Assembly (NCBI RefSeq): GCF_036634195.1
Contig: NZ_JAZIFY010000001.1
Span: forward strand, 496,001 to 560,000
DNA length: 64,000 nt
Direction: 5' to 3'
Source: Streptomyces sp. P9-A4
GTDB lineage: Bacteria > Actinomycetota > Actinomycetes > Streptomycetales > Streptomycetaceae
Part shown: piece after piece, positions 3-18,475 of the stretch
How the letters are laid out: each line of letters starts with the position of its first letter
Numbering within the stretch: the stretch's first letter is position 1
Position numbers and translations under genes: made by a program
The notes under the pieces: generated by a model
Database searches by the model: none
What the model was told of the DNA's origin: nothing
Seen by the model: only the letters and a program-made list of their open reading frames with translations

Positions 3-545
3 GCGCATCTGCACGGCTCGGTCTCGTGGTTCGGGGTGCAGATCCTGCCGACCGAGCAGCTGTTCGCCCGAGCGCGACGGCCCGAGGACGCGAACGGCGG
101 CCACGCCGAAGGCGCCGGGCACACGAACGGCGACGGGAGCGGGAACGGCTACGCCTGGCTGACGCCGTGTCCCTCCGACCGGCTGCGGATCTGGCTCGCT
201 CACGCGCTCTTCCAGAACCTCACCCTCGACCTGTCCGAACTCCTCGCCCTGCGGGCCCTCCTGCGCCCCGACGTCCTGGCCGAGGCACACCGTGAGGCCG
301 CGCGCGAGGGCTGGAGCACGGGCGGCCACGAGGCCCTCGCCACCGCCGTGGAGGCGATGGCGCGCCTGGACCGGGGCGAACCCGTCCCTCTCCCCCTGCC
401 GCTGCCCGTGCGGACCTCCCTGCGGGTGGGCGCCGAGCACAGCGGCCACCTCCTGGGCGAGGGACGGCTGCGGGCCGCGACCCGTGAGGCCTCCCTCCGG
501 GTGCCGCTCGTGGTGACGAAGAGACTGCGGAGGCGGGTGCCATGA
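3..545 (+). CDS. Nucleotidyltransferase-like protein, 3' part (start outside window)
   Basis: The frame is open from base 3 with no stop, and the first possible start inside the window (GTG at 36) lies in what looks like continuous protein (LHGSVSWFGVQ before it), so this is probably the C-terminal ~180 residues of a longer gene. The fragment is helical and Leu/Ala/Arg-rich, with a segment (LRIWLAHALFQNLTLDLSELLALRALLRPD) like the C-terminal part of uncharacterised NTP_transf_5 nucleotidyltransferases, which often sit in actinobacterial glycan clusters. The catalytic part would lie upstream and cannot be checked. Its stop overlaps the next start (ATGA at 542-545), so it heads the same operon. 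Family assignment is tentative; translation of the frame is well supported. Confidence 0.55.
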   Translation, partial: AHLHGSVSWFGVQILPTEQLFARARRPEDANGGHAEGAGHTNGDGSGNGYAWLTPCPSDRLRIWLAHALFQNLTLDLSELLALRALLRPDVLAEAHREAAREGWSTGGHEALATAVEAMARLDRGEPVPLPLPLPVRTSLRVGAEHSGHLLGEGRLRAATREASLRVPLVVTKRLRRRVP

Positions 546-2440: not shown

Positions 2441-3294
2441 CCGGGTTCGTACGGACCGTCGTCGGATCGGGCGTCCCGGTCCTGGTGCTCTCCCCGCACC
2501 TGGACGACGCCGTGCTGTCCTGCGGCGGGCTGCTCGGCTGGGCGGGGCGGCGGGCGCCGGTGACCGTCGCCACGCTCTTCACCCGGGCCGCGCCACCGCC
2601 GTACACCCTCTCCGCCCGCCAGTACCTCAAGCAGACCGGCGCCGAGGACGCCGAGAGCCTCTTCGCCGAGCGGCGGACGGAGGACCGGCGGGTCCTGGAG
2701 CGGCTCGACGTCCACTGGCGTCACGTCGGCCTGGTCGACGGTCTCTTCCGGCGGCTGCCGCGGCCCCGGCCGGGCACGGAACGCCTCTCCCGGCTGCTGC
2801 CCGAACTGGCGCACGTGTACCCGACGTACCGGCTGCACCTCGCCCGGGGCCGGGTCTCCCGCTACGACGACGAGACCCTGCGCGCGGTCGGGGCGACCGT
2901 CGACGCCCTGCTGCCCGGCTCCACCGGCGGGCTCGTCCTCGCGCCGCTGGGCGTGGGCGGGCACGCCGACCACGTCCTGGTGCGCACCGCCGCCGAGCGG
3001 TGCGGGCGCCGGGTCGTGTACTACAGCGACTTCCCGTACGACCAGCACGCGGCCCCCGACCCGGGGTTCACCGGCAGGCACCGGCTCGTGGCCCATTCCT
3101 GGGAGCGGGGCCTCGACCGCAAGGCGGAGCTGATCCGCGGTTACCGGACGCAGGCGGACGCCCTGTTCCCCGGGGGCCGCGTCCCGCGCGCGCCCGAGGT
3201 GTACCTGCTGCCCGAGGACGGTCCGTGGGCCACCGATCCGCGCCGCGCGCGGGCCCCCGGTCTCGGGCTCCACACCGCCGGAGGCGTGTCATGA
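2422..3294 (+). CDS. PIG-L family (LmbE-like) N-deacetylase
   Basis: A 290-residue protein with the metal-binding PIG-L signature SPHLDDAVLSCGG (PHLDD at residues 25-29) and the second motif GGHADHVLVR. Known members are Zn-dependent deacetylases acting on N-acetylglucosaminyl compounds, for example in mycothiol, GPI and glycopeptide pathways. The ATG at 2422 has GAGGAAGAGGGG upstream inside the 3' end of the GT4 gene, giving a 19-base overlap. No signal peptide is seen, so it probably acts in the cytosol. Its place among glycosyltransferases suggests it deacetylates a GlcNAc-containing intermediate of the same glycan or glycolipid. The exact substrate cannot be read from sequence. Confidence 0.85.
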   Translation: MADDPLTGFVRTVVGSGVPVLVLSPHLDDAVLSCGGLLGWAGRRAPVTVATLFTRAAPPPYTLSARQYLKQTGAEDAESLFAERRTEDRRVLERLDVHWRHVGLVDGLFRRLPRPRPGTERLSRLLPELAHVYPTYRLHLARGRVSRYDDETLRAVGATVDALLPGSTGGLVLAPLGVGGHADHVLVRTAAERCGRRVVYYSDFPYDQHAAPDPGFTGRHRLVAHSWERGLDRKAELIRGYRTQADALFPGGRVPRAPEVYLLPEDGPWATDPRRARAPGLGLHTAGGVS

Positions 3295-4976
3295 CCGTCG
3301 AACGCACCGCCCCCGTGGCCGCCGGGACCGAGGCGGCGGCGTCGGAGACGTCACCGCGTCCGCGTCGGCGGATACGGCGCGGCCCCCTCCCCACGTACGT
3401 CTACGCGGCGCTGGCCGCGGTGCTCACCACGGTCCTGCGCCTGCTGGAGATCAGCCGCGCCGGGGACCTGTTCGTCGACGAGCCGATCTACCGCCGGCTC
3501 GGGGACAGTGCCGCCGCGGGCGGCTTCCCCGGGGACGACGAGGGCCTGTTCTTCCTCCACCCGCCGGGCTACTTCTATCTGGAGGCCGGCTGGACGAAGG
3601 TGGTCGGGCAACACGCGGACGTCATCGCGGGCGTGCACTCCTCCCGGGTGCTCAACGCCCTCCTGGCCGGGGGCACCGCCGCCCTGCTGGTCTTCCTCGT
3701 GGCGCGCGTCCGGTCGCGCGGCGCGGGCGTGCTCGCGGGCCTGGTGTTCGCCCTGGACCAGTTCTGCATCCGCCAGAACAACCGGGTGCTGCTGGAGACG
3801 GCGACGATGATGTGGGTCCTCGCGGGCATGCTCGTCCTGCTGGGACTCGCCCGGTCCGGTCCGACCGCACGGCCCCGGGCACGCGCCCTGCTCGCCGGAC
3901 TGTTCTTCGGGCTCGCGATCCTGACGAAGGACCACGCGGTGCTGATCACCGTGCTGCCGCTGCTCGCCGCCCTCGCGCTCGGCTGGGGTCCACCCCGCCG
4001 ACTGGTCGCCCTGGCCGCCTCGGTGGCGGTCCTCATGTACGCCGGGTACGTGGCTCTGGTGGCCGGATTCGGGCACATGGACGCCTTCTGGGAGGCGAAG
4101 ACCTCCGGTGTGCGTCGGCTCATCGGGATCGTGCAGGAGACCGGCTTCAACGCCGCGGGCACACCCTCCCTCTCGGGCCGGCTCGTCGCCGAACTCCCCG
4201 GCTACGCGAGCACCTACGTGCTGCTCGCGCTCACCCCGGTGGCCCTCGTGCTGCTCCTGCGCCACCGGGAGCCGATGTACCGGCTGCTCACGCTCTTCCA
4301 CATCTCGGCGATCCTCACCCTCGGGTACGCCCTCGCCATCGGCACCCTGGAGGAGCAGGCGCTCTATCTGCTGTTCGTGCCGAACCTGGTGGCGCTCGCC
4401 GTCACCCTGCCGGTGCCGTCCCGCCACCGGCGCGGACTGCGCCTGGTGGCGTGCGGCGCGCTCGTCGCCCTGCTCGCCGCCCCGGCCGCGGTGTACGCCC
4501 GTGACCGGTGGACTCCCGACGACGGCTTCGCCCGGCTCCGGGCGTATGTGCTCACCCACGTCCCGGCGGGCAGCGGCATCGTGACCGTGGACGGCCAGCG
4601 GACCCGGGGCGTGACCACCTGGGCGCTGGAGGACACCTACCGGCTCGGCCACTGGGTGACTCCGGGAGAGCGGGCCGCGAACGGCGCCGGGTACCTGATC
4701 GTGCCCTGGCGGGTCATCGAGCAGGGCTACGGGCGTTCCTCGGTCGCGGAGGTCCACGGGCTGACGGACGGCCTGCGGCCGGTGTTCGTGTTCCACGGGC
4801 CCACGTACGGCACGCTCGCCCTGTACCGGCTGCCCGCGCCGCTGCCGGGACCGAGCCTGACGGCAGTCGCCGTGCCGGGCTCCGCCGTGACGGGGCCGCT
4901 GCTTCCGGCGCCCGGTCCGACGGCGGCGCCCGTGCCGGGGCCGCCGGTCACGGAGGCGGGCGATGCGCCACGGTGA
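3291..4976 (+). CDS. GT39/GT83-like polytopic glycosyltransferase (lipid-linked mannosyltransferase type)
   Basis: A 561-residue integral membrane protein. After a basic, disordered N-terminus (residues 1-35) come a first helix and an extracytoplasmic loop with the acidic pair D63-E64 (DLFVDEPIY), typical of GT-C enzymes using polyprenyl-phosphate sugars. About ten more hydrophobic helices follow, then a soluble extracytoplasmic C-terminus ending in a Pro/Ala-rich tail. The ATG at 3291 is chosen because it forms an ATGA overlap with the PIG-L stop and begins just before the first charged segment; the frame is open further upstream only as shadow. Inferred role: transfer of a sugar from a polyprenyl-phosphate carrier outside the membrane. 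Confidence 0.8.
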   Translation: MTVERTAPVAAGTEAAASETSPRPRRRIRRGPLPTYVYAALAAVLTTVLRLLEISRAGDLFVDEPIYRRLGDSAAAGGFPGDDEGLFFLHPPGYFYLEAGWTKVVGQHADVIAGVHSSRVLNALLAGGTAALLVFLVARVRSRGAGVLAGLVFALDQFCIRQNNRVLLETATMMWVLAGMLVLLGLARSGPTARPRARALLAGLFFGLAILTKDHAVLITVLPLLAALALGWGPPRRLVALAASVAVLMYAGYVALVAGFGHMDAFWEAKTSGVRRLIGIVQETGFNAAGTPSLSGRLVAELPGYASTYVLLALTPVALVLLLRHREPMYRLLTLFHISAILTLGYALAIGTLEEQALYLLFVPNLVALAVTLPVPSRHRRGLRLVACGALVALLAAPAAVYARDRWTPDDGFARLRAYVLTHVPAGSGIVTVDGQRTRGVTTWALEDTYRLGHWVTPGERAANGAGYLIVPWRVIEQGYGRSSVAEVHGLTDGLRPVFVFHGPTYGTLALYRLPAPLPGPSLTAVAVPGSAVTGPLLPAPGPTAAPVPGPPVTEAGDAPR

Positions 4977-6054
4977 CCGGCCCCGCGTCCTGCTCCTGAC
5001 CAGCAGCCCGCTGGACGGGTCGGAGGGCGGTGACGTGCGGCTCGCCTCCGATGTCCTCGGGTCCCTGCCGGACGTGGACTTCGTCTGGTTCTCCCAGTGG
5101 CCGCGCCGCCGGCAGGCTCCGCCGGCCCGCGGGCGGCCGGTCCGCCTCCTCTCCCGCGACGGCGTGCCGCACGTGCCGGAACGGGTGCAGTCGGCCCTCC
5201 TCGGGGCCGTGTTCGCCCGCCGGGTCGACCTGGTGCACGCCTTCCTGACGATCGGCCGCACCTTCCCGGCGTTCTCGTGGCTGCGCCCGCTGCTGCTCGG
5301 CGGGCGGCCGGTGGTCCACACGGTGCCGGGGGTGATGGACAACCGGTTCCTGGCCCGCACCCGGCCGCTGGGCACCACGATCGCCCTCTCGGAGTCGATG
5401 GCGCGGCGGCTGCGGGCCGCGGACTTCGGGGACGTGCGCGTGGTGCCGCCGATGATCGGCCTGGACGCCTGGCCGTACCTGCCGCGCCCCGAGGGCTTCC
5501 CGACGGTCCTGTTCGCCGGGCACCACGATCCCGACGGCGGGGCGGAGATCGCGATCGACGCGGCGGCGGAGGCCGTGCGGGCCGGGGCCCGGTTCCGTCT
5601 CGTCCTCGCGATGCGCGGACGGCCGGGGCAGGACCCCGGCGCGCTCGACGAGGCGCTGCGGGAGCGGGCCGGGGCCTCGGGCCTCACGGACTTCGAGCTG
5701 CTCGGCTACGTCGACGACATGCACGCGCTCCTCGCCTCGGTCCATGTGCTGCTGTTCCCTCCGGCGGTGCTCGGCGGCAAGGCGGACATCCCGCTCACCG
5801 TCCTCCAGGCGCTCGCCTCGGGGCGGCCCGCGATCCTCAGCGACCTCCCGCAGTTCGCGGACTTCGGCCACGCGGTGCTGCGGGCGCCGGCCGGTGACGC
5901 GCGGCGCACCGGGCAGCAGCTGGCCTGGCTGCTCGACCAGCCGAGGTCCTGGGACGTGCTCGCGGAGCGGGGCCGCTCCCTCGTCGAGGAGCACTTCGGG
6001 CCCGAGCGCTTCGCGGCCCGCTACGCGGCGCTCTACCGGGAGCTGCTGTCATGA
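4963..6054 (+). CDS. GT4-type glycosyltransferase
   Basis: A 363-residue soluble GT-B protein. The N-terminal half starts RVLLLTSSPLDGSEGGDVR (nucleotide-fold strand plus glycine loop). The C-terminal half has FELLGYVDDMHALLASVHVLLFP and PLTVLQALASGRPAILSD, the usual acceptor/donor cleft region of family 4, ending with a FGPERFAARYAALYREL helix. The start overlaps the GT39-like gene by 14 bases and the stop overlaps the next start (ATGA), so it is translationally coupled on both sides. The usual E-x7-E is degenerate here (LGGKADIPLTVLQAL in place of PSxxEGFGxxxxE), so donor binding may be atypical or the enzyme a divergent subfamily. Confidence 0.78.
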   Translation: MRHGDRPRVLLLTSSPLDGSEGGDVRLASDVLGSLPDVDFVWFSQWPRRRQAPPARGRPVRLLSRDGVPHVPERVQSALLGAVFARRVDLVHAFLTIGRTFPAFSWLRPLLLGGRPVVHTVPGVMDNRFLARTRPLGTTIALSESMARRLRAADFGDVRVVPPMIGLDAWPYLPRPEGFPTVLFAGHHDPDGGAEIAIDAAAEAVRAGARFRLVLAMRGRPGQDPGALDEALRERAGASGLTDFELLGYVDDMHALLASVHVLLFPPAVLGGKADIPLTVLQALASGRPAILSDLPQFADFGHAVLRAPAGDARRTGQQLAWLLDQPRSWDVLAERGRSLVEEHFGPERFAARYAALYRELLS

Positions 6055-7337
6055 CGGCGCGGAGGTGGCCGGGGCGCCGGGGCGGGGTGGCCGCCCTGGC
6101 GGTCCTCACGGTCCTCCTCCTGCTCGTGGGGGCGTTCGGTCTGCTGCGGCACGTGGGGCAGGGGCGGGAACCGGCGCCGGGGCTGTACTGGTACGGCACC
6201 CTCCAGACCGAACCGGACCGGGCGCTCACCGAGTACCGGAACGGCATCCGGGTGGCGCATCTGCAGATCGACTGGGGCCGGCTCGAACCGCGGCAGGGCG
6301 TGTACGACGAGGGGTACGCGCGCGAGGTGCGTGCCCGGCTCGACTCCTTCCGGTCGGCGGGGCTGCTGGTCGAGGCGGGGCTCGGCCTCAACCATCCGCC
6401 GCCCTGGCTGCCGGACGCCTTCCCCGAGTCGGTCTTCGAGAACCAGTACGGCGAGCGGTCCACCGGCACCCCGAACATCGTGTTCAGCCGACCCGTACGG
6501 GATCAGGTCGCCGAGTACGTGCGCGCGGTGGACCGGCTCATCGGGCTCGGCCACGTCTGGGCGATCCGGATCGGCGTCAACGAGAACGGCGAGTTCGCCT
6601 ATCCCTCGCCGCTGTCGGGGAGCGGCGGCCCCGGTGAGTTCTGGGCGTACGACAACCACGCCCAGGCGAGCAGCCCGTACCCGGGATGGCGGCCCGGGGA
6701 GTCCACGTACCACGGGAAGCCGTTCACCCGTGAGCAGGTGGCGCGCTGGTACGACTGGTACACCGGGGCGCTGGCCGGGGCCGTGAACTGGCAGCTCGAC
6801 CTGTACACCTCGCTCGGGTACCGGGGGGCGCTCAAGGTCCTCGTCCCGGGGGCGGGTTTCTACCCCTCGGACCTGCGGGCGGCCGTGAACGCGCGGCTCG
6901 CCGGCTCGCCGTCGGTCCGGCTCGTGGCGCGGGGTGCCGGCTTCTTCCTGACGCTCCCCCTGGTCGAGCACCGGGACACCGTGCGGATCGTCACGACGGC
7001 GCTGGTGGACGGCACGGGCGACCCGGCCGACAACGGCTGCTCGCCCGGCGACGCGCGGACGGACGTGTCCGCGCCGGCCGACGCGGCGGTGCGCGGCTGG
7101 TCCTCGGCGCGCTGGGTGGTGGCGGTGGCCCGGAGCGCGGGCTTCACCCGGCTGGCCGGCGAGAGCGCGGGGCCGCAGGTGTCCCCGTACCGCCCGGGGG
7201 TGACGGAGGCGGCCTTCCGGCAGATGTCGTCCTGCGGGCTCGAAGGGATGATGTGGGCCTTCGACCGGCATCTGTACGACGGGACGCCGGGGTCCTCGCT
7301 GGCGGAGTACGCGGACACGATCCGGCGCCACGTCTGA
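6051..7337 (+). CDS. Membrane-anchored glycoside-hydrolase-like TIM-barrel protein
   Basis: A 428-residue protein with a basic N-terminus and one hydrophobic segment (residues ~9-29, VAALAVLTVLLLLVGAFGLL), i.e. an uncleaved anchor or signal peptide, so the rest lies outside the membrane. The barrel reads like clan GH-A (beta-galactosidase/GH42 or GH5 type): VAHLQIDWGRLEPRQGVYDEGY near the start, then VEAGLGLNHPPPWLP, then the Asn-Glu pair at N177-E178 (RIGVNENGEF), which is the expected acid/base position, and aromatic-rich substrate loops (SPYPGWRPG, WYDWYTGAL). It closes the overlapping operon, consistent with trimming or remodelling the glycan made by the upstream genes. The nucleophile Glu is not securely identified. 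Confidence 0.7.
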   Translation: MTARRWPGRRGGVAALAVLTVLLLLVGAFGLLRHVGQGREPAPGLYWYGTLQTEPDRALTEYRNGIRVAHLQIDWGRLEPRQGVYDEGYAREVRARLDSFRSAGLLVEAGLGLNHPPPWLPDAFPESVFENQYGERSTGTPNIVFSRPVRDQVAEYVRAVDRLIGLGHVWAIRIGVNENGEFAYPSPLSGSGGPGEFWAYDNHAQASSPYPGWRPGESTYHGKPFTREQVARWYDWYTGALAGAVNWQLDLYTSLGYRGALKVLVPGAGFYPSDLRAAVNARLAGSPSVRLVARGAGFFLTLPLVEHRDTVRIVTTALVDGTGDPADNGCSPGDARTDVSAPADAAVRGWSSARWVVAVARSAGFTRLAGESAGPQVSPYRPGVTEAAFRQMSSCGLEGMMWAFDRHLYDGTPGSSLAEYADTIRRHV

Positions 7338-7372: not shown

Positions 7373-8140
7373 TCAGGCCGGCCGTTCGGCGGTGAGGAGC
7401 AGGATGCCGGTGTCCCCGTACTCGGGCAGTGTGCGGTCCTTCGCCAGCCGGGCGATCCGCAGCCGGGTGGTGCGGGGCGCGAACACGGCGCGCAGGGCGG
7501 CCTCGTCGACCGGGCAGGCGGGCCAGACCGGTCCGGTGCCGATGCGGTAGCTGGGCATGCGTTCCATGAAGGCGGCGAGGAGCAGGCCGCCCGGCCTGAC
7601 CGCGCCGACGAACGCGGCGCACAGGGCGGCGAACTCGTCGAAGTCCTCGGTGACGCTCTCGGCGACGAAGTTCATCGAGGCGAGGTCGTAGCTGTCCGGG
7701 ACCAGGTCGCCGGCGGCGCCGGGCACGACCCGTACGGGGCGGAGCGCCTCCATGAGGGTGGCCGGGAGGGCGGGGACGAGGGAGCGGCACAGGGCGTAGA
7801 AGGGCTGCCAGCTCTCGTCGGGACCCCGGTCGAGCTGGCGGCGCAGGTAGTCGGCACCGGCGGCGCCGGGTTCGAGGGCGTCGACGCGGCGGCTCGCGGC
7901 GCCCGCGAGCATCAGCGGGTAGAGGTTGGGGCCGGCGCCGAGTTCGAGGGTGTGGGCCAGGCTGTGGGGGGCGTGGCGCCGGTAGACGGCCGCGTGGTGG
8001 CGGATGACGCCGATGTCGCAGGGGTGGAGCTGCCGGTAGTTCTCGGCGAGGTAGTCGGTGACGGGCCAGGCGTCCCAGTCGGCGTCCCGGTTGCGGCGGA
8101 CCCGGGTCCGGTCCGCCGGGGGCGGCGCTTCGCCCCTCAT
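7373..8140 (-). CDS. SAM-dependent methyltransferase, NNMT/PNMT/TEMT-like
   Basis: A 255-residue soluble protein. SAM motif I is LELGAGPNLYPLMLAG, followed by the acidic strand end VDALEPG; a DLASMNFVAESV segment matches the post-I acidic/motif IV area; the N-terminus has W..TDYLAENYRQLHPCDI, as in nicotinamide/phenylethanolamine N-methyltransferase-like enzymes. The ATG at 8140 overlaps the stop of the upstream fusion gene (ATGA), so translation is coupled directly to the alpha-oxoamine synthase domain. Inference: it methylates the product of that synthase, on N or O. It is convergent with the glycan operon. Confidence 0.75.
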   Translation of the reverse strand: MRGEAPPPADRTRVRRNRDADWDAWPVTDYLAENYRQLHPCDIGVIRHHAAVYRRHAPHSLAHTLELGAGPNLYPLMLAGAASRRVDALEPGAAGADYLRRQLDRGPDESWQPFYALCRSLVPALPATLMEALRPVRVVPGAAGDLVPDSYDLASMNFVAESVTEDFDEFAALCAAFVGAVRPGGLLLAAFMERMPSYRIGTGPVWPACPVDEAALRAVFAPRTTRLRIARLAKDRTLPEYGDTGILLLTAERPA

Positions 8141-11100
8141 GGCTCCGCCGTCCGGCCCGCGGCGACGGGGCGGGCGGGGCGGAGCCGGAAGCGCCCGGCG
8201 AGTTCCGTGAGGGCCTGGCACAGCTGGTCGATCTCGGCGTCGGTGTTGGCGGCGGTGATCTGGATGCGGAAGCCCACCTGCTCGCGCGGGACGAGCGGGT
8301 AGGCGGCGAGCGTGACGTAGATGCCGCGCTCCCAGAGGAAGGCGGCGACGTCGTCGAGGTCGTCGGCGTCCCCGAGGGGGATCTCGACGATCGGCAGCCC
8401 GTCCCTGTTGGGGGTGGCGACCCCGAGGGCCCGTACATGGGCGAGGAGGCGGGCCGTCATGGCGTACAGCCGGGCCCTGATCTCGTCGCCGCGCTCCTCG
8501 TTGACGTCGAGTCCGGCGAGCGCGGTGGCGAGCGAGGCGGTCGGTGAGGGCCCGGAGTAGAGGTACGGGGCCGCCGCCACCTTCAGATGGTCCTTGAGCC
8601 ACTTCGGGACGGCGAGGAAGGCCAGCAGGGAGGAGTACGCCTTGGAGAAGCCGCCGACGAGGACCAGGTCCTCGTAGGTCTCGCCGAGGTGGCGGACGAT
8701 GCTGTTGCCGCGGGTGCCGTACGGGCTGGTCTCGCCGGGGCTGCGCTCGCCGATGACGCCGAAGCCGTGGGCGTCGTCGACGTACAGGAGGGCGCCGTTC
8801 TCCCGGCAGATCCGGGCCAGGCCGGGCAGGTCGGGGAAGTTTCCGGTCATGCTGTTGACGCCGTCCATGCAGACGAGCCGGCCGGCGTCGGCGGGGGCGC
8901 CGCGCAGCAGCGCCGCCAGCTCCTCGGGCCGTTCGGCGTGGAAGCGGTGGATCTCGGCGCCCTGGCCCCGGGCGGAGACGCAGCCGTCGTACACGGTGCG
9001 GTGCGCCTGTGCCTCGACGAAGACCTGTCCGGTGCCCGCGAGGAGGGGGATCACCGACTGGTGGATGAGGGTGATGGTGGGCAGCAGCAGGGTGTCGGGG
9101 GCGCCGAGGAGTTCGGAGAGCCGCTCCTCGATCCGGGGGTAGAGCCGGGGGCTGCCGATGAGCCGGGACCAGCTGGGATGGGTGCCCCACCGTCTGACCT
9201 GCGGTTCGATCGAGGCGATGACCGTCGGGTCGAGGTCGAGGCCCAGGTAGTTGCAGGAGGCGAAGTCGACGAGCCAGTCGTCACCGACCCGGATGCGGCG
9301 GCCGTCGATCTCGTCGATGACCGCGTCGCACATCGGGCTGGTGTGCTGGAGGTGTTCCAGGTCGCGCCAGCGGGAGGCGCGCGGGAGGCGCCGGACGGGG
9401 CCGGACGGACCGGCGGAGGCTCCGGTCGACGGGCGGGCGGGCGCCCTCGCCGACAGCCGGACGGAGGGCCGGACGGAGGCGCCGACGCCGGCCGGGCGGA
9501 CGGCGAGCCGTTCGGCGCCGGAGGGCGCGCGGTGCAGGTACGACTCCGCCTGGTGGGCGGTCATGGGCCGGGCGAAGAGGAAGCCCTGCCCGTACCGGCA
9601 GCCCATCTCGGCCAGGAGCGCCCGCTGTTCCTCGTGCTCGATGCCCTCGGCGACGACCTGGAGGCCGAGCACGTCCGCGATGCGCACGATGCCCTCGACG
9701 AGCGCCACCTGCTGGGGGTCGGTGGTGATGTCGTCGATGAACGACTTGTCGACCTTGAGGACGTCGATGGGGAACTCGCGGAGGTAGCTCAGCGAGGAGA
9801 ACCCGGTGCCGAAGTCGTCGATGGCGATGGAGACGCCCAGGTCCTTGAGGGCGGCCATGGTGGTCCGGATCTGGGCGTCCCTGCGCATGAGGACGCTCTC
9901 GGTGAGCTCCAGGACGAGCGAGCCCGGCGCGAGCCCCGAGGAGCGCAGGGTGCGCCGTACGCCTTCCAGGAAGCCGGGGTCGCGGAACTGGCGGGCGGAG
10001 ACGTTGACACTGGCGTACAGGGGGGCCTTGCCGGGGCGGGCGCGCTGCCAGCGGGCGATGTCGAGCGCGGCGTGTTCGAGGACCCAGGCGCCCAGCGGCA
10101 TGATGTGGCCGCTCTCCTCCGCGAGGGCGATGAACTGGTCGGGAGGCACCAGGCCCCGCCGGGCGTGCGGCCAGCGGATCAGCGCTTCCAGACCGGCCGG
10201 GGCGCCGCCGCTGACCTCGACGATCGGCTGGTAGCGCAGGGCGAACGCGTGGTCGGCGATGGCCGTTTCCATGCCCGCCTGGAGTTCGTGCCGGGCGACG
10301 AGCCGCGAGTGGAACTCCGGGTGGAAGAGCCGCCATCGCTTCTTGCCGGCCGCCTTGGCCGCGTACAGGGCGAGGTCGGCGTGGCCGAGGAGTTCCTCGG
10401 CGTGGGCGCTGTCGAGGACGGTCGCGATACCGACGCTGGTCGACACCGAGACCGCGCCGTCGGTCAGGTGGAAGGGCTGGCTGAGGGTGTGCACGATCTC
10501 CGCCGCCAGGGCCTCGGCGTCGCGGGGTTCGCGCGCGCCTTCGATGAGGACGGCGAACTCGTCGCCGCCGAGCCGGGCGGCGGTGTCGGTGAGCCGCAGC
10601 ACGGAGGTGAGGCGGCGGGCGACGGCGACGAGGAGTTCGTCGCCGACGGAGTGGCCCATGGTGTCGTTGACGACCTTGAAGTCGTCGAGGTCGACGAAGA
10701 GCATGCAGGTCAGGGTGGATTCGCGGCGGCCCCGGAGCAGGGCGCGCTCGACCCGTTCGAGGAGGAGGACGCGGTTGGGAAGCCCGGTGAGGGAGTCGTG
10801 GAAGGCCCGGTGGGTCAGTTCCCGTTCGAGTTTCCGCTGCTCGGTCACGTCCCGGAGGGTGAGGACGAGTCCGTGGACGGTGCGCTCGTCGCGCAGGTTG
10901 CTGCAGCGGACCTCGACCTCCAGGTCGGCCGAACCGCCGTGGAGGAGTTTCCAGTCGTCGCGGGCGTCGACGGCGGAGCGGGAGCGCGCGTCGGCGAGGA
11001 CGCGGAGCGCGGCGGGGACGTCGGCGGGGGCGATGAGGTCGGTGAGCGGGGTGCCGGGGAGCAGGGAGCGGCCGAACGTGGTCTCGGCGGAGGGGCTGGC

Positions 11101-12780
11101 GTACCGGACGGTGTCGTCGTCGTCGACGATGAGGATGACGTCCGAGGTGTTGTGCACGAGGGTGCGGAAGTAGGCCTCGCTGGTCCGGCGGTTGACCTCC
11201 TCGCTGAGCGCGAACCGTTCGAGGGCCAGGGCCGCCTGGGAGGCGAGGGACTGGGCCGGGCCCGAGATCTCGGCGAGCTTCTTCTCGGGGCCCGCGACGA
11301 CCAGGACGCCGAGCAGGGGTTCGGGGCCGGCCGGGGCCTGGAGCCGCAGGGGGCAGAGCAGGGCGTACGGCTCGGGGGCGACCTCCGCCGCGACGGCGGG
11401 GTCGAGCCGGTTCACCGGGACGAGCCGGGTGCCGTCGGCGACGGCCTCGTGCCAGGCCGGGCCGGGCGGCGGGGGCGAGGCGCCGGCGGAGGGCCGGGAC
11501 GGGGCGGCGGCGGCCCGTGACGACACGTCGGGCCGTACCCGGAGCGGGTCGGTGGTGGGCCGGGACGGCTCGTCGGTCCCGTGGCGGATCAGTTCCCCCG
11601 TACGGCAGCTCCAGGGGTGGCTCGCGGTGGCCACGGCGTTGAGGTCGCCCCGGCGGTCGCGGGTGAGGAGGAGGACCCGGTGGCCGGTGCCGGGGCCGAA
11701 GAGCGTCGCGGACGCCGTCTCCACGGCTCCGCCGACCTCGCGGGGGCTGAGGGCGGCGACGAGGGAGGCGGCGGCGACCCGGAGGCTGCGCTCGCGCGCC
11801 TCGGCCTTGCCGTGGTCGTTCATCATGCCCCAGAGCCGGACCAGGACGAGAACGAACATCAGGGCCGAGAAGATCGCGATGACGGCGATGTCCCGGTCCC
11901 CGTCGTGGCTCAGCGACTGGAGGAGGAGCAGGACGGGCGCGACGAGCGAGGCACCCGCCAGCAGGGCGAGGCGCCGCTCGGCCACGTGCGGCGCGGGTTC
12001 GGGGGCACGCTCGGTGAGGCGGGTCATCGACGGGTGGAGGGCGGCGAGGCCCCAGGCGGTGAAGAAGACGACCCAGCCGAGGTCCCAGGCCGTGCCGACC
12101 TGCCAGGTGCCCTTGAGCTGGAGGGTGCCGTAGATGACGTCGGAGGCGAGGATGCCGCAGGTGCCGAGGGTGAGGAGCTGCACGGAGCGGGTTCTGAGGC
12201 CGCCGGGGACGAGGAGCCGGGCCAGCATCGCCAGCATCAGCACGTCACCGAGCGGGTACGCCATGGAGATGGCCTTCTCGGTCCAGCTCATGCCCTCGCT
12301 CCTGGCCAGCGGGGTGATGAGGTTGACCCAGGAGAGCAGCGCGAGGCCCGCGGTGAGGATCAGCGCGTCGAGGACGACGCCCAGGTCACGGCCGACGGCC
12401 CGGTAGCGGATGAAGCCGAACAGGCCGACCGCGAACAGCGGGTACGTGGCCAGGTAGAGGGCGTCCGCGACGGAGGGGAACGGTCTGGTCTGGCCGTAGA
12501 AGGCCTCCAGAGCGTTGTACGCGGTGTCGCCGCCGACGAAGGTGAGGTTGGCGGCGGCGAGCACGAGCCAGGGCCAGCGCCGGGACGGCCTGTGGATCCG
12601 GACGCCGACGAGGATGGCGACGACGCCGCCGAGTCCGATGAGCGCCCAGAGGATGGTGTGGCGGGAGGGGAACTGGAGGTAGGCGACCGTGAGAAGGACG
12701 ACCACCAGGACGTACAGCAGGGTCCACCGGCGCAGTGCCCCGGTCGCGGCGAGCGGCCGGTTCGGCTGGCGCAGCGGCAT
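8137..12780 (-). CDS. Membrane PAS-GGDEF-EAL protein fused to PLP-dependent alpha-oxoamine synthase
   Basis: One uninterrupted 1547-residue frame. Residues ~14-310 hold about ten membrane helices. A GAF-like or linker region follows, then PAS at ~535-650 (HNTSDVILIVDDDDTVRYASP). The GGDEF is intact at 738-742 (ARLGGDEFAVL), preceded by an RLTD inhibitory site at 729-732 with the standard five-residue spacing. The EAL is intact at 864-866 (LEALIRW) with DDFGTGFSSL near 988 and VVAEGIE after it, so both c-di-GMP synthesis and hydrolysis look possible. After a low-complexity Arg/Pro/Ser linker (~1095-1135), residues ~1138-1530 form a fold-type I alpha-oxoamine synthase: VDFASCNYLGL, VNSMTGNFPDL, YVDDAHGFGVIGE and GFSKAYSS with the PLP lysine K1380. 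Within the linker I find no ATG, GTG or TTG codon in frame before M1150, and no ribosome site precedes that Met, supporting a true fusion. Known relatives condense an amino acid with an acyl-CoA; the substrate here is unknown. The ATG at 12780 has AAGGGGG upstream. Confidence 0.85.
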   Translation of the reverse strand: MPLRQPNRPLAATGALRRWTLLYVLVVVLLTVAYLQFPSRHTILWALIGLGGVVAILVGVRIHRPSRRWPWLVLAAANLTFVGGDTAYNALEAFYGQTRPFPSVADALYLATYPLFAVGLFGFIRYRAVGRDLGVVLDALILTAGLALLSWVNLITPLARSEGMSWTEKAISMAYPLGDVLMLAMLARLLVPGGLRTRSVQLLTLGTCGILASDVIYGTLQLKGTWQVGTAWDLGWVVFFTAWGLAALHPSMTRLTERAPEPAPHVAERRLALLAGASLVAPVLLLLQSLSHDGDRDIAVIAIFSALMFVLVLVRLWGMMNDHGKAEARERSLRVAAASLVAALSPREVGGAVETASATLFGPGTGHRVLLLTRDRRGDLNAVATASHPWSCRTGELIRHGTDEPSRPTTDPLRVRPDVSSRAAAAPSRPSAGASPPPPGPAWHEAVADGTRLVPVNRLDPAVAAEVAPEPYALLCPLRLQAPAGPEPLLGVLVVAGPEKKLAEISGPAQSLASQAALALERFALSEEVNRRTSEAYFRTLVHNTSDVILIVDDDDTVRYASPSAETTFGRSLLPGTPLTDLIAPADVPAALRVLADARSRSAVDARDDWKLLHGGSADLEVEVRCSNLRDERTVHGLVLTLRDVTEQRKLERELTHRAFHDSLTGLPNRVLLLERVERALLRGRRESTLTCMLFVDLDDFKVVNDTMGHSVGDELLVAVARRLTSVLRLTDTAARLGGDEFAVLIEGAREPRDAEALAAEIVHTLSQPFHLTDGAVSVSTSVGIATVLDSAHAEELLGHADLALYAAKAAGKKRWRLFHPEFHSRLVARHELQAGMETAIADHAFALRYQPIVEVSGGAPAGLEALIRWPHARRGLVPPDQFIALAEESGHIMPLGAWVLEHAALDIARWQRARPGKAPLYASVNVSARQFRDPGFLEGVRRTLRSSGLAPGSLVLELTESVLMRRDAQIRTTMAALKDLGVSIAIDDFGTGFSSLSYLREFPIDVLKVDKSFIDDITTDPQQVALVEGIVRIADVLGLQVVAEGIEHEEQRALLAEMGCRYGQGFLFARPMTAHQAESYLHRAPSGAERLAVRPAGVGASVRPSVRLSARAPARPSTGASAGPSGPVRRLPRASRWRDLEHLQHTSPMCDAVIDEIDGRRIRVGDDWLVDFASCNYLGLDLDPTVIASIEPQVRRWGTHPSWSRLIGSPRLYPRIEERLSELLGAPDTLLLPTITLIHQSVIPLLAGTGQVFVEAQAHRTVYDGCVSARGQGAEIHRFHAERPEELAALLRGAPADAGRLVCMDGVNSMTGNFPDLPGLARICRENGALLYVDDAHGFGVIGERSPGETSPYGTRGNSIVRHLGETYEDLVLVGGFSKAYSSLLAFLAVPKWLKDHLKVAAAPYLYSGPSPTASLATALAGLDVNEERGDEIRARLYAMTARLLAHVRALGVATPNRDGLPIVEIPLGDADDLDDVAAFLWERGIYVTLAAYPLVPREQVGFRIQITAANTDAEIDQLCQALTELAGRFRLRPARPVAAGRTAEP

Positions 12781-12953: not shown

Positions 12954-13988
12954 TCAGGAGGAGGCGCGGACCACGAGTTCCGTCGGGAGCATCCGGCGGG
13001 GCTGCTCGTCCGGGTCGCCGGGTGCGGCGATCTCCTGGAGCAGCAGCCGGGCCATGGTGCGGCCCATCTCCTCGATGGGCTGGCGGACGCTCGTCAGCGG
13101 AGGGTCCATGTGCCGGGCGACGGCCGAGTCGTCGACGCCGACGAGGGCCACGTCCTCGGGGACCCGGCGGCCCGCCTCGCGCAGGACGCCGCGCGCGCCC
13201 GCGGCCATCACGTCGGAGGCGGCGAACACGGCGTCCAGGCCGGGCCTGCGGTCGAGGAGTTCCCGCATGGCCCGCCGGCCGCCCTCCTCGGTGAAGTCCC
13301 CGTCGGCGACGAGCGCGTCGTCGGGAACGAGTCCGGCCCCGGTCAGGCCCTCGCGGTAGCCGTCGAGCCGGCAGCGGGCCACGTACATGTCGAGGGGGCC
13401 GGTGATGGTGGCGATCACGCGCCGGCCGCGCCCCGCGAGGTGGGCGACGGCGGTCCGGCCGGCGCCGGTGTTGTCGGAGTCGACGAAGGCGACACGTTCG
13501 TCCTCGGTGCGACGGCCGTTGAGGACGGCGGGCAGGCCGAGGGCGCGGACCTGGTCGGGCAGCAGGTCCTCACCGTGCACGGAGACGAGGAGGACGCCGT
13601 CGACGCGCTGGGCGGCGAGGTACTGCTCGAAGCGCTGGCGCTCCTGCTCGCTGCGGATCAGGGTGAGCAGCAACTGCTTGTCGGCGTCGGCGAGTTCACT
13701 GCTGACGCCACGGATGATGTCGAGGAAGTACGGCTCCGCGAAGAGCCGGGCCTCGGTCTCGGGGATCACCAGGGCGACGGCGTCGGTACGGCTGCCGGCC
13801 AGGGCGCGGGCGGCCCGGTTGGGGACGTAGCCGAGTTCGGCGACGGCCCGTTCGACGGCGGCCTTGGCCTGCTCGCTCACCCGGGGGGAGCCGTTGATGA
13901 CCCGGGACACGGTGCCGCGGCCGACTCCCGCCCTGGCCGCGACCTGCTCCAGGGTGGGCCTGCCGGTCTGCCGCCCGCTCGACGCCAT
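12954..13988 (-). CDS. LacI family transcriptional regulator
   Basis: A 344-residue repressor. The N-terminal HTH (residues ~11-35, TLEQVAARAGVGRGTVSRVI) and hinge helix (VPNRAARALAG) bind DNA. The rest is a periplasmic-binding-protein-like sugar sensor with AVALVIPETE, the effector-domain core LPAVLNGRR, and the C-terminal DVALVGVDDSAVARHMDPPLTSVRQP block. The ATG at 13988 is preceded by GGGAG. No transporter or glycosidase lies directly beside it, so its targets may be elsewhere. The only carbohydrate genes nearby are the glycan operon at 1-7.3 kb. Confidence 0.93.
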   Translation of the reverse strand: MASSGRQTGRPTLEQVAARAGVGRGTVSRVINGSPRVSEQAKAAVERAVAELGYVPNRAARALAGSRTDAVALVIPETEARLFAEPYFLDIIRGVSSELADADKQLLLTLIRSEQERQRFEQYLAAQRVDGVLLVSVHGEDLLPDQVRALGLPAVLNGRRTEDERVAFVDSDNTGAGRTAVAHLAGRGRRVIATITGPLDMYVARCRLDGYREGLTGAGLVPDDALVADGDFTEEGGRRAMRELLDRRPGLDAVFAASDVMAAGARGVLREAGRRVPEDVALVGVDDSAVARHMDPPLTSVRQPIEEMGRTMARLLLQEIAAPGDPDEQPRRMLPTELVVRASS

Positions 13989-15406: not shown

Positions 15407-17143
15407 GTGCCCCGCTCCAGGACCGACCATGCCCCACTGCCCCGGCAGGGGCGCCGTCCTCGCCTCCGGACGGCGGCGATCGCGACGGGTGTGGTCGCCG
15501 TCGCCGCGGGCGGCCTGTACGTCGCGGGTCTCGCCGCGACCGGCGACGACATATCCGCCGGCACCCGTGTCGACGGCGTGGACATCGGCGGCATGAGCCG
15601 GGCGCAGGCCCAGGCCAAGCTGGCGGCCGAGGCCCCGGCCTCGTGGAACGCGCCGATACCCGTGCGGGTCGGCGACAGCGCCACCACCGTGGCCCCGGCC
15701 GCCGCCGGCCTCACCGTGGACCTGGCGAAGACCGCCGACCTGGCCGCCGATCCGGCCCGTGACCCCTTCACCGTCATCGGGCGGCTCTTCTCGTCCGGCG
15801 AGCGCGACATCCGGCCCGTCTACGCGTACGACGCCGCCAAGGCGAAGGCCACCGTGTCGACGCTGGCCGAGAAGAACGACCGGGCGGTACGCGAGGGGTC
15901 CGTGGCCTTCCGCGACGGCAAGGCCGTCGCGACGCACCCGGTGACGGGGCAGAAGCTGGACACCGGGCAGGCCGTCGAGACCCTGCGCGCCGCCTACCCC
16001 GCCACCGGCGCCTCGGCGGTGAACCTGCCCGTCACGATGACCGAGCCGAAGCTGCCCGCGACCGAGGTGTCCCGCTTCCTCGACTCGTACGCGAAGCCCG
16101 CCGTCTCCGGCCCGGTGACCCTCACCGCCGGCCAGGAGCGGCTGCGGATCTCCCCCGCGACGCTGAGCGACCACCTCACCGTGAAGACGGAGAACGGCCG
16201 GCTCACTCCCGCGCTCGACGCGGAGGCGCTGCTGCGTGATCCGGACGTGGCCCGGCCGCTCGCCGCGCTGACCGGCGCGCCCGTCGAGGCGAGCCTCGGG
16301 GTCAGGGACGGCAAGGTCGTGGTGGAGTCCGAGGGCCGGCCGGGGCACGAGGTGACCGCGAAGGCCCTCGGGGACGCCGTACGCCCGCTGCTCACCAAGT
16401 CCGGCACGGCCGCGCGGACCGCGCCGGTGGCCACCACCGTCACCGAGCCCGAGCTGAGCGCGGGCTCCCTCGCGCGTCTCGGCATCACCGAGCAGATGTC
16501 GACCTTCACGGTGAACTTCCCGAGCGCGCCGTACCGGACGACGAACATCGGCCGGGCGGCCGAGCTGATCAACGGCTCGCTGGTACAGCCGGGCGAGGTG
16601 TGGAGCTTCAACAAGACGGTCGGCGAGCGGACCGCGGACAACGGCTTCGTCGACGGCACCATGATCCTGGACGGCCAGTACCGGTCGGCGCCCGGCGGTG
16701 GCGTCTCGGCCATGGCCACCACCATGTTCAACGCCATGTTCTTCGCCGGGGTGAAGCCCGTGGAGTACGGCGCCCACTCCTTCTACATCGAGCGCTACCC
16801 GGCCGGCCGTGAGGCGACCGTCGCATGGGGCTCGCTGGACCTGAAGTTCCGCAACGACACCGGCAAGCCGATCTACATCAAGGCGGGCGCGACCGACACC
16901 TCGGTCACGGTGAGCTTCCTGGGCACGAAGAAGTACGACTCCGTGGAGGCGGTCGCGGGACCGCGCACCAACCTCACGCAGCCCTCGAAGCGCGAGGGAA
17001 CCGGTGAGGCCTGTGTGCCGCAGCCGCCCCTCGAAGGCTTCGACATCTCGGTGGACCGGGTGTTCAAGAACGGCGGCGCCGAGGTCAAGCGGGAGACCTT
17101 CAAGACCCACTACACCCCGCGCGACGAGGTGATCTGCAAGTAA
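15407..17143 (+). CDS. VanW family, YoaR-like cell-envelope protein
   Basis: About 578 residues. A basic N-terminus with one transmembrane helix (residues ~25-48, TAAIATGVVAVAAGGLYVAGL) is followed by repeated peptidoglycan-binding-4-like modules (TRVDGVDIGGMSRAQAQAKL ... ) and a C-terminal VanW domain (SFNKTVGERTADNGF, GGGVSAMATTMFNAMFFAGV, HSFYIERYPAGREATVAWG). Two cysteines near the C-terminus (ACVPQP, VICK) could form a disulfide outside the cell. I start at GTG 15407 because GGGAGA lies 4-5 bases upstream and the N-terminus then has a normal signal-anchor layout; the frame is open far upstream but without coding character. Known: VanW-type proteins lie in glycopeptide resistance clusters and spore/envelope loci, but their activity is not defined. 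Confidence 0.85.
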   Translation: MPRSRTDHAPLPRQGRRPRLRTAAIATGVVAVAAGGLYVAGLAATGDDISAGTRVDGVDIGGMSRAQAQAKLAAEAPASWNAPIPVRVGDSATTVAPAAAGLTVDLAKTADLAADPARDPFTVIGRLFSSGERDIRPVYAYDAAKAKATVSTLAEKNDRAVREGSVAFRDGKAVATHPVTGQKLDTGQAVETLRAAYPATGASAVNLPVTMTEPKLPATEVSRFLDSYAKPAVSGPVTLTAGQERLRISPATLSDHLTVKTENGRLTPALDAEALLRDPDVARPLAALTGAPVEASLGVRDGKVVVESEGRPGHEVTAKALGDAVRPLLTKSGTAARTAPVATTVTEPELSAGSLARLGITEQMSTFTVNFPSAPYRTTNIGRAAELINGSLVQPGEVWSFNKTVGERTADNGFVDGTMILDGQYRSAPGGGVSAMATTMFNAMFFAGVKPVEYGAHSFYIERYPAGREATVAWGSLDLKFRNDTGKPIYIKAGATDTSVTVSFLGTKKYDSVEAVAGPRTNLTQPSKREGTGEACVPQPPLEGFDISVDRVFKNGGAEVKRETFKTHYTPRDEVICK

Positions 17144-17329
17144 CGCGGGCGGCGGCTCGGGGGCGCGTACGGCAGATGACCGGCACGCGTCCGTCGGGGG
17201 GTACGGATGAGGCGCCCGGGGTCTTCCCGTGACGGAAGGGTGTCTTCCCGTACCGCCGGGGCATGACTCCGGAGCGCGGCCCGCCAGGTCCCCGGGGCCC
17301 CGCCCCCGCAGACCCGTCGGAGGCCCGCC

Positions 17330-18361
17330 TTGGCAGTGCGCAGCGATCCCATCGAGCGGCTGCTGGGTGACGCGGCCCGCTCGGGTGTGTACCCGGGCGC
17401 CGCGTGGGCCGTGGGTGACGCCCGCGGCACCCTGTCGGACGGCGCCGTCGGACTCCTCGACCCGGCGCGGCCCGGGGAGCCGATGCGCCCCGACACCCTG
17501 TTCGACGTCGCGAGCCTCACCAAGATCCTCGCCGTGTGGGCCGTGACCGGGACCCTCGTGGACGCCGGGAAGCTCGACCTCGCGGCGCCGCTCGGCTCCT
17601 ACTGGCCCGAGGCGGCGGGGCGTCCCCTCGCCGGGGTCACGGCGCACCACCTCCTCACCCACACCGCGGGCCTGCCGCTCCGCGCCAACCTCCGGCACCT
17701 GTACGGCTCCGATCCGCAGGACGTCAGGGACGGCGTCCTCGCGGAGCCGCTGCGGCACCGGCCGGGGGAAGCCGTCGCGTACACCGACCGGGCGGCGCTG
17801 GTCCTCGGCTACCTCGCCGAACACCTCACCCGCACCCCGCTCCCCCGGCTCGCCGGGGAACGCGTCTGGGCGCCGCTCGCCATGCCGGAGACCCGGTACG
17901 GTCCGCTGCCCGCGGCGATCAGGGAGCGGTGCGCGCCCACCGAGTACGACGAGGGGACCGGCGCCCCGCTCCAAGGCACCGTCCACGACTTCTCGGCCCG
18001 GCTGCTCGGCGGGGCCTGCGGGATCGCCGGGGTCTTCACCACCACCGCGGACATCGGCGGGTTCCTGCGCCATCTGCTCGCCCCCGTGCCCGGCACCTTC
18101 TCCGCCGGCTGGACCGCCGACTCGCTCCGGGTCCGCACCGGTGAACTCGACCCGCCGCGCGGGCTGTTCTGGCACCCGGCACCGGGCACGGATCCGGCGG
18201 ACGGCGTGTGGGCGCACTTCGGCTTCACCGGTACGGGGATGTGGGTGTCACCGGCCCGCGGGCGGTGGGCGGTCCTGCTCACCAACCGGCTCCGCCTCAC
18301 CCGTGACCCGGGCCCGCTGGCCCGGGTCAGGGACGTCTTCCGGGCGCTGGCCTTCCCCTGA
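17330..18361 (+). CDS. Serine hydrolase of the beta-lactamase/penicillin-binding (class C) family
   Basis: A 343-residue protein with the SxxK catalytic motif S62-L-T-K65 (LFDVASLTKIL), the VTAHHLLTHTAGLP segment shared by EstB/AmpC-type esterases, a tyrosine motif at Y151 (AYTDRAALVLGY, where YxN is usual, so the Asn is replaced by Asp) and a C-terminal HFGFTGTGMWVSP block in place of KTG. No signal peptide is seen, so it is probably a cytosolic esterase or amidase rather than a beta-lactamase. The TTG at 17330 has GGAGG at 17319-17323 with ideal spacing; a GTG two codons later is the alternative. It converges on the AfsR-like gene. Confidence 0.85.
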   Translation: MAVRSDPIERLLGDAARSGVYPGAAWAVGDARGTLSDGAVGLLDPARPGEPMRPDTLFDVASLTKILAVWAVTGTLVDAGKLDLAAPLGSYWPEAAGRPLAGVTAHHLLTHTAGLPLRANLRHLYGSDPQDVRDGVLAEPLRHRPGEAVAYTDRAALVLGYLAEHLTRTPLPRLAGERVWAPLAMPETRYGPLPAAIRERCAPTEYDEGTGAPLQGTVHDFSARLLGGACGIAGVFTTTADIGGFLRHLLAPVPGTFSAGWTADSLRVRTGELDPPRGLFWHPAPGTDPADGVWAHFGFTGTGMWVSPARGRWAVLLTNRLRLTRDPGPLARVRDVFRALAFP

Positions 18362-18411
18362 CCGCCGGAGCCGGCCGCCTTCGTCCTCCGCGTCCCGGTC
18401 GTCCCAGGGAC

Positions 18412-18442
18412 GTCCCGGGCATTCCCGGGTGCCGTCCGGGAC
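18412..18442. terminator. Inverted repeat between convergent genes
   Basis: GTCCCGG and CCGGGAC pair as a 7-bp stem; the loop itself contains a CCCGGG repeat. It lies in the 114-base gap between the convergent serine hydrolase and AfsR-like genes and is a plausible shared terminator, though alternative pairings exist. Confidence 0.3.
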
Positions 18443-18475
18443 GGCCGTGGACGGCCCCCGCGCCGGGCCGGGTTG

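Follow-up and report, generated by a model that had tools for sequence, protein, structure and literature searches.

A CdgF-type protein of Streptomyces that joins c-di-GMP turnover domains to an alpha-oxoamine synthase: a possible signal synthase fused to its receptor

We analysed a 64,000-nucleotide stretch of the genome of Streptomyces sp. P9-A4 (the window; contig NZ_JAZIFY010000001.1, positions 496,001 to 560,000), in which a single open reading frame (ORF) encodes a ten-helix membrane domain, a PAS domain, the GGDEF and EAL domains of cyclic di-GMP (c-di-GMP) turnover and, at its C-terminal end, a complete alpha-oxoamine synthase (AOS). The fusion is certain at the level of the DNA, and the protein is, by its architecture and by exclusion, the orthologue of CdgF of S. 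venezuelae, whose gene, vnz02140, is known here from its published description. We hypothesize that a signal of the fatty aminoketone type is synthesized by the AOS and perceived by the ten-helix domain as its receptor, and that the two have been fused in Streptomyces; what we infer are the ligand, its identity with the AOS product, the chemistry and the direction of control, and we put the probability of this reading at about one in two. The more specific proposal, that CdgF is a quorum circuit on a single polypeptide, which makes a fatty aminoketone signal and detects it through its ten-helix domain to set c-di-GMP, and that it belongs to an actinobacterial signalling family whose shared synthase-receptor pair drives either c-di-GMP enzymes or histidine kinases, seems to us to fall somewhat short of an even chance.

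A single frame from membrane helices to synthase

The fusion ORF and its parts are:
8137..12780, minus strand: CdgF-like fusion ORF (ten-helix domain, PAS, GGDEF, EAL, linker, AOS), ATG start, 1547 aa
11794..12747, minus strand: ten-helix membrane domain, residues 12-329, proposed receptor (AlphaFold2 model md9ded5decc5b, mean predicted local distance difference test score (pLDDT) 85)
10846..11172, minus strand: PAS domain, residues 537-645 (Pfam PF00989, 27.9 bits, cut-off 22.6)
10336..10806, minus strand: GGDEF domain, residues 659-815 (Pfam PF00990, 148.9 bits)
9565..10269, minus strand: EAL domain, residues 838-1072 (Pfam PF00563, 251.5 bits)
9370..9510, minus strand: R/P/A-rich linker, residues 1091-1137, sequence not conserved
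8191..9369, minus strand: AOS domain, residues 1138-1530 (Pfam PF00155, 100.9 bits)
8641..8643, minus strand: codon of the pyridoxal phosphate (PLP) lysine, K1380, in GGFSK

The PAS, GGDEF, EAL and Aminotran_1_2 (residues 1171-1524) matches all score above the Pfam gathering cut-offs, residues 330-536 have no Pfam match, and the AlphaFold2 model places ten long helices in residues 1-330. An earlier interpretation made from the DNA letters (the sequence-only reading) had proposed one frame of 1547 codons with ten helices, PAS, GGDEF, EAL and a PLP enzyme, and the ORF, the Pfam matches and the model confirm it. GGDEF at 738-742, the I-site RLTD at 729-732, DDFGTG (988-993) and K1380 were found where it had put them; the EAL motif is intact, as it had claimed, and lies at 865-867 rather than one residue earlier at 864-866. 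The motifs by which a bifunctional diguanylate cyclase/phosphodiesterase is recognized, GGDEF, RxxD, EAL and DDFGTG, are thus all present. The G+C content at third codon positions (GC3) stays at or above 0.95 through the linker, so that no frameshift is visible, and the only in-frame start codon within residues 1081-1172 is the ATG of M1150, whose 20 upstream bases contain no purine-rich ribosome site. As the sequence-only reading had also noted for the linker, no plausible internal start for a separate synthase is seen.

The arrangement recurs in relatives. We searched 295 Streptomyces genomes for the AOS (E <= 1e-70), found it in 51 and classified these by comparing the reading frames of EAL and AOS. 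ORF length was discarded as proof of fusion: the long frames of L062 (1701 aa) and L160 (genome G081, 1481 aa) are not fusions. EAL and AOS are fused in frame in 39 of the 51, split in nine, broken by frameshifts in two and, in one case at a contig end, unjudgeable; L093 and L109, being one genome, count once, and L111, flagged as having a stop inside, counts as fused, its 1486-aa ORF containing both EAL and AOS. This frequency, which had been suggested as a check, also confirms the frame through the relatives. In the nine split copies a separate AOS gene lies just downstream, set apart by an intervening stop (five) or by a different frame (four), and the linker of the fused copies varies from 15 to 74 residues without conserved sequence. 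Among the matches listed from a protein search with residues 1130-1547, at least 120 of 535 combine PF00155 with PF00563 in the precomputed domain column; PF00990 is also present in all of those listed except P0047, and the named source organisms are all Streptomyces.

Could the fusion be an artefact of annotation or assembly, the enzyme normally being a separate gene? The AOS does stand alone in the nine split copies and in 44 loci outside Streptomyces, and at such G+C content long frames open by chance, as L062 and L160 illustrate. The shared frame in 39 genomes, the 120 listed homologues and the even GC3 across the linker stand against this explanation, which we consider extremely improbable; for the DNA it is refuted, a frameshift or misassembly being ruled out by the linker GC3 and the in-frame relatives. 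The sequence-only reading had named homologues split near residue 1135 as the observation that would tell against it, and this came half true, in 9 of 51 Streptomyces genomes and in the 44 loci elsewhere. Because these copies keep the AOS separate, the fusion is an event at the level of Streptomyces that built on an older gene partnership. In a tree of the AOS, the Streptomyces rows form a single clade (49 rows; Shimodaira-Hasegawa-like approximate likelihood ratio test support 95), and the fused or split state switches at least six times. This is consistent with an early fusion followed by repeated splitting, a direction that counts of state changes do not reveal.

Within Streptomyces the catalytic residues are well kept. 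GGDEF, I-site and EAL are intact in 49 of the 50 other loci; the exception, which gave no match, is presumably L107, at a contig end. The PLP lysine is present in 48 of the 50. The two remaining copies read GGFSN or AGFSQ, and their synthase may be inactive, or the copies themselves broken. At the DDAH motif, 13 of the 50 read DDTH. In a 40-row alignment of the AOS, K244, H124, D199/D200, H202 and R369 are invariant; we take these to be the PLP lysine, the ring-stacking histidine, the Asp/His of DDAH and the carboxylate-binding C-terminal arginine.

The predicted structure of the AOS domain (model m191311429130, mean pLDDT 91) superposes on ThaOS, BioF, serine palmitoyltransferase (SPT) and KBL with a template-modelling (TM) score of about 0.85, and the Foldseek match to ThaOS (E 3.7e-33, TM 0.85) assigns it to the fold-type I PLP-dependent AOS enzymes. 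These four share its fold and catalytic residues at about 25-30% identity. In sequence it is closest to KBL and SPT (122-123 bits), the CqsA chains scoring only 37-38 bits, and by closest sequence relationship it does not belong to the CqsA/LqsA family; the aligned SPT differs in turn by reading GTFSK, with threonine, where the family of the AOS domain has the glycine of GGFSK. Given the fold and the invariant catalytic residues, the domain is expected to be capable of coupling an amino acid to an acyl thioester.

The ten-helix domain beside the synthase in other bacteria

A scan of GTDB genomes yielded 89 loci encoding a relative, of which we kept 80: 36 from Streptomyces and 44 from elsewhere (Actinoplanes and its relatives, Dactylosporangium, Solirubrobacter, Acidimicrobiia, one Yersinia nurmii and others). 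Among these 44, no AOS is fused to GGDEF-EAL. Among the 80, the order is fused in 35, sensor then AOS in 12 (among them the frameshifted Streptomyces copy L085 and, with a 4-base gene overlap, L062), AOS then sensor in 12 (including L071) and on opposite strands in seven, with gaps of 128 to 2682 bases; 14 have no partner. L032 is counted as fused, its ORF lacking the ten-helix part, which lies upstream in another frame. At the locus of the proteobacterium Yersinia nurmii (L086:9965-11239), the AOS, 54% identical, stands alone beside arginase-family and GTP cyclohydrolase genes, and no ten-helix partner was found there.

Across 396 actinobacterial genomes sampled evenly from the phylum, the AOS was found in 26 (two of them Streptomyces) and a match to the ten-helix domain (E <= 1e-20) in 107. 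In 24 of the 26 genomes, and in 22 of the 24 outside Streptomyces, no more than about 5 kb separates the AOS from the best-scoring ten-helix match (tables compared by eye); in G440 the adjacent match is a lower-scoring one, and in G421 none is near the AOS. A ten-helix protein thus adjoins the AOS in 25 of 26 genomes, 23 of 24 outside Streptomyces. As a control, none of 15 other AOS-like genes of the same genomes (28-35% identity) lies near a ten-helix gene among the matches listed. The sample shares at least five contigs with the GTDB loci (L112/L049, L113/L056, L125/L081, L126/L082, L131/L088), and the two sets are not independent.

The output attached to the ten-helix domain varies. In seven loci (L115-L119, L130, L133) a histidine kinase bearing this domain stands beside the AOS, and L116-L118 have a ten-helix GGDEF-EAL copy in addition; such kinases rule out that c-di-GMP signalling is what the AOS is generally paired with. 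Outside Streptomyces, the GGDEF motif reads GADEF or GGDEY in 9 of 68 loci and no GGDEF match is found in 22 of the 68, a set that includes repeated contigs.

For a tree of the ten-helix domain, 87 rows were drawn from 123 candidates, all but ten Streptomyces loci being left out as near-alike. A version of 75 rows (55 of them linked to the AOS) dropped 12 of these, namely five long or doubtful rows, including the linked L047, two short linked fragments and five same-contig duplicates. On this tree the state 'AOS-linked' switches six times, whereas 300 shuffles gave 17.9 switches on average and never fewer than 13; the output type switches at least four times among the linked rows. In an alignment of the ten-helix domain, D106, D138, D179 and D214 are among the invariant residues. 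L153, labelled unlinked in the clade of L132 and L133, is the ten-helix protein of G421, whose AOS sits on another contig. Because outputs are swapped and the c-di-GMP residues vary outside Streptomyces, the ten-helix domain tracks the synthase better than the output module does, as one partner of a ligand-receptor pair would. We also observed, on the same Streptomyces contig as the fused copy of L036 and about 5 kb from it, a second ten-helix GGDEF-EAL gene without AOS (16320-19472, minus strand), which falls inside the AOS-linked ten-helix clade.

A putative signal synthase with its receptor, and other explanations

From these observations, we propose that the C-terminal domain would use an amino acid and a fatty-acyl thioester to make an aminoketone-type signal, which would be exported, perhaps after methylation by the methyltransferase encoded alongside. 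As the receptor, the N-terminal ten-helix domain would set the balance between GGDEF and EAL, and c-di-GMP would thereby report the state of the population or of diffusion. Synthase and putative receptor are adjacent genes in most other AOS-bearing actinobacteria and usually one chain, CdgF, in Streptomyces. Signal synthase plus receptor is, with about one chance in two, the best supported of three readings, the reverse direction of control being possible as well.

The surroundings of the AOS bear on its substrate and on export. Two genomes of one actinobacterial genus encode, each near a ten-helix protein, an AMP-binding ligase and a PP-binding carrier fused to a 42%-identical AOS (L132:7953-11183, L133:5862-9209). 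The AMP-binding part carries a DIP2-like AMP domain, an arrangement found in fatty-acyl-AMP ligases. In Paractinoplanes (L068:11212-12471), an AMP-binding enzyme with AMP-binding_C_2 starts within the last four bases of the AOS gene; genes related to it occur in L066 and L072. A substrate of the fatty-acyl type suggests itself. A transporter of the MFS_3 type (major facilitator superfamily, MFS) lies beside the AOS or sensor gene in 16 of the 44 non-Streptomyces loci (by clustering, with Pfam checked for two) and in 10 of 24 loci of the phylum sample, five of these contigs repeating GTDB loci.

The same enzyme could instead belong to the synthesis of a structural lipid or secondary metabolite, the linked protein being an ordinary membrane or stress sensor and the pairing a matter of co-regulation. 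Consistent with this are the solved relatives, which include serine palmitoyltransferases, KBL and BioF, the existence of a fatty-acyl ligase-carrier-AOS fusion, and the restriction of the AOS to a minority of the genus (51 of 295), as is often the case with accessory metabolites. Exporters, however, adjoin part of the loci, the receptor-like ten-helix partner is nearly constant, and related ten-helix domains carry kinase or c-di-GMP outputs; we consider this explanation doubtful.

Control might also run the other way, with a sensor of membrane state, light or redox regulating the synthase through c-di-GMP, a phosphorelay or direct contact. In a fusion the AOS would be controlled directly, the GGDEF, I-site and EAL motifs are intact in nearly all other Streptomyces loci (the 49 of 50 given above), and ten-helix domains are widespread without the AOS. 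In L115, L119, L130 and L133, however, the only ten-helix partner in the stretch examined is a histidine kinase, so that c-di-GMP is not the general link, and 9 of 51 Streptomyces genomes encode the AOS as a free protein, so that one chain is not required. We judge regulation of the synthase unlikely, though less so than the lipid or metabolite explanation. The sequence-only reading had tied a membrane c-di-GMP switch to the AOS product, and this part stands; its idea that the switch governs synthesis now looks less likely than a product sensed by the switch, because in relatives the ten-helix domain stays with the AOS while the output can be a histidine kinase.

Several observations weigh against a signal synthase with its receptor. 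Fourteen of the 44 non-Streptomyces loci, mainly of Paractinoplanes and its kin together with Solirubrobacter soli and Yersinia nurmii, have no ten-helix GGDEF/EAL partner within the stretch examined. In the 87-row tree the partners L047 and L063 lie outside the AOS-linked clades, and the kinase-type L119 and L130, which there stand beside linked rows, fall among unlinked ones in the 75-row tree. Ten-helix matches in 107 of 396 genomes mean that the domain also occurs without the AOS, which rules out that it is exclusive to it, and the AOS was found in none of 20 examined neighbourhoods of ten-helix genes without it. An MFS exporter is present in just 3 of the 36 Streptomyces loci, and the fusion operon of the window has no adjoining MFS gene. 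In the conditions of the published work, S. venezuelae lacking cdgF showed no developmental phenotype (PMC6205966). We stress that the pairing of AOS and ten-helix domain is a correlation, that adjacent genes descend together and that the ten-helix profile was built from AOS-linked sequences.

If a signal synthase and its receptor are indeed joined here, Streptomyces c-di-GMP signalling would gain a named input, the orphan enzyme CdgF would be explained, and a family of AOS-based signals in Actinomycetota would be indicated.

Neighbouring genes, CdgF and related systems

Two genes flank the fusion on its own strand:
7373..8140, minus strand: S-adenosylmethionine-dependent methyltransferase gene, 255 aa, start overlapping the fusion stop (ATGA, 8137-8140)
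12954-13988, minus strand: LacI-family regulator, directly upstream of the fusion

Because of the ATGA overlap, to which the sequence-only reading had not drawn attention, the methyltransferase is probably translationally coupled to the fusion, and a methyltransferase gene lies downstream of the AOS in 49 of the 51 Streptomyces genomes. Its matches to NNMT_PNMT_TEMT and SCO2525_fam are weak and below the curated cut-offs; with 117.8 bits against an NCBIfam cut-off of 240, it is related to the SCO2525 family without being a member. Among the GTDB loci it occurs only in Streptomyces and in L062, and it was discarded as a general component of the system. Genes that match the LacI-family regulator in size and position (unaligned) occur in a cluster of 20 loci. 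Convergent to the operon, positions 542-7337 (plus strand) hold a five-gene glycan-type cluster: a kinase/glycosyltransferase, a PIG-L deacetylase, a PMT-like mannosyltransferase, a family 4 glycosyltransferase (GT4) and a weak match to glycoside hydrolase family 42. Similar neighbours recur in Streptomyces loci, a 363-aa gene in 26 of them (matched by size and order, unaligned), and a polysaccharide regulated by c-di-GMP is possible.

Five proteins of the GGDEF-EAL type are encoded in the genome of the window: a CdgC-like protein that has membrane segments and whose EAL is degenerate, two without a predicted membrane segment, an RmdB-like protein and the fusion. With the other four assigned elsewhere, the fusion is the CdgF orthologue: it has the ten-helix-PAS-GGDEF-EAL order that sets CdgF apart from CdgA, CdgC, RmdA and RmdB. 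CdgC is published as 10TM-PAS-PAC-GGDEF with a degenerate EAL (PMC6205966), and differs from the fusion in that EAL and in having no AOS. The presumed CdgC of the window genome (L002) resembles the fusion in its membrane region (26% over 279 aa) and likewise keeps GGDEF intact.

PMC6205966 describes CdgF (vnz02140/sven0451) as a "10TM-PAS-PAC-GGDEF-EAL" protein of low abundance, predicted to be bifunctional, with both catalytic motifs intact. It thus shares its domains and motifs with the fusion in a description without a synthase: the domain table stops at EAL, and the words 'synthase', 'oxononanoate' and 'pyridoxal' are absent from the main text of the paper. The 1547-aa protein P0013, named S. 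venezuelae by NCBI, carries the whole fusion. When CdgF carried a FLAG tag at its C-terminus, it was detected solely in the membrane fraction (PMC6205966), which fits a one-chain product. The same paper states that the signals perceived by the sensor domains of these Streptomyces c-di-GMP proteins remain unknown, and passages of PMC12096830 on cdgF call it the gene of a bifunctional enzyme, upregulated in RNase mutants during fragmentation. The sequence-only reading's view that no protein of this architecture had been described does not hold, CdgF being such a protein, even if its published table ends at EAL. A search of the open-access literature, judged largely by title, found no paper on GGDEF and AOS in one protein. 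To our knowledge, the combination of a small-molecule signal synthase, its presumed receptor and a second-messenger enzyme has not been described in a single protein.

The closest functional analogy is with the CqsA and LqsA systems, and the comparison with CqsA drawn in the sequence-only reading proved a good lead. CqsS has six helices and the sensor here has ten, with no match among the folds of the PDB at E <= 0.001 (best E 0.2). In the alpha-hydroxyketone quorum sensing of CqsA/CqsS and LqsA/LqsS, as passages of PMC3376566 describe it, a PLP-dependent synthase that uses a fatty-acyl-CoA co-substrate is encoded together with a membrane sensor kinase. The AOS described here is nearer to KBL and SPT, the outputs are c-di-GMP enzymes or kinases, and synthase and sensor are fused in most Streptomyces copies; the system would thus follow a CqsA/CqsS-like logic assembled from different protein families.

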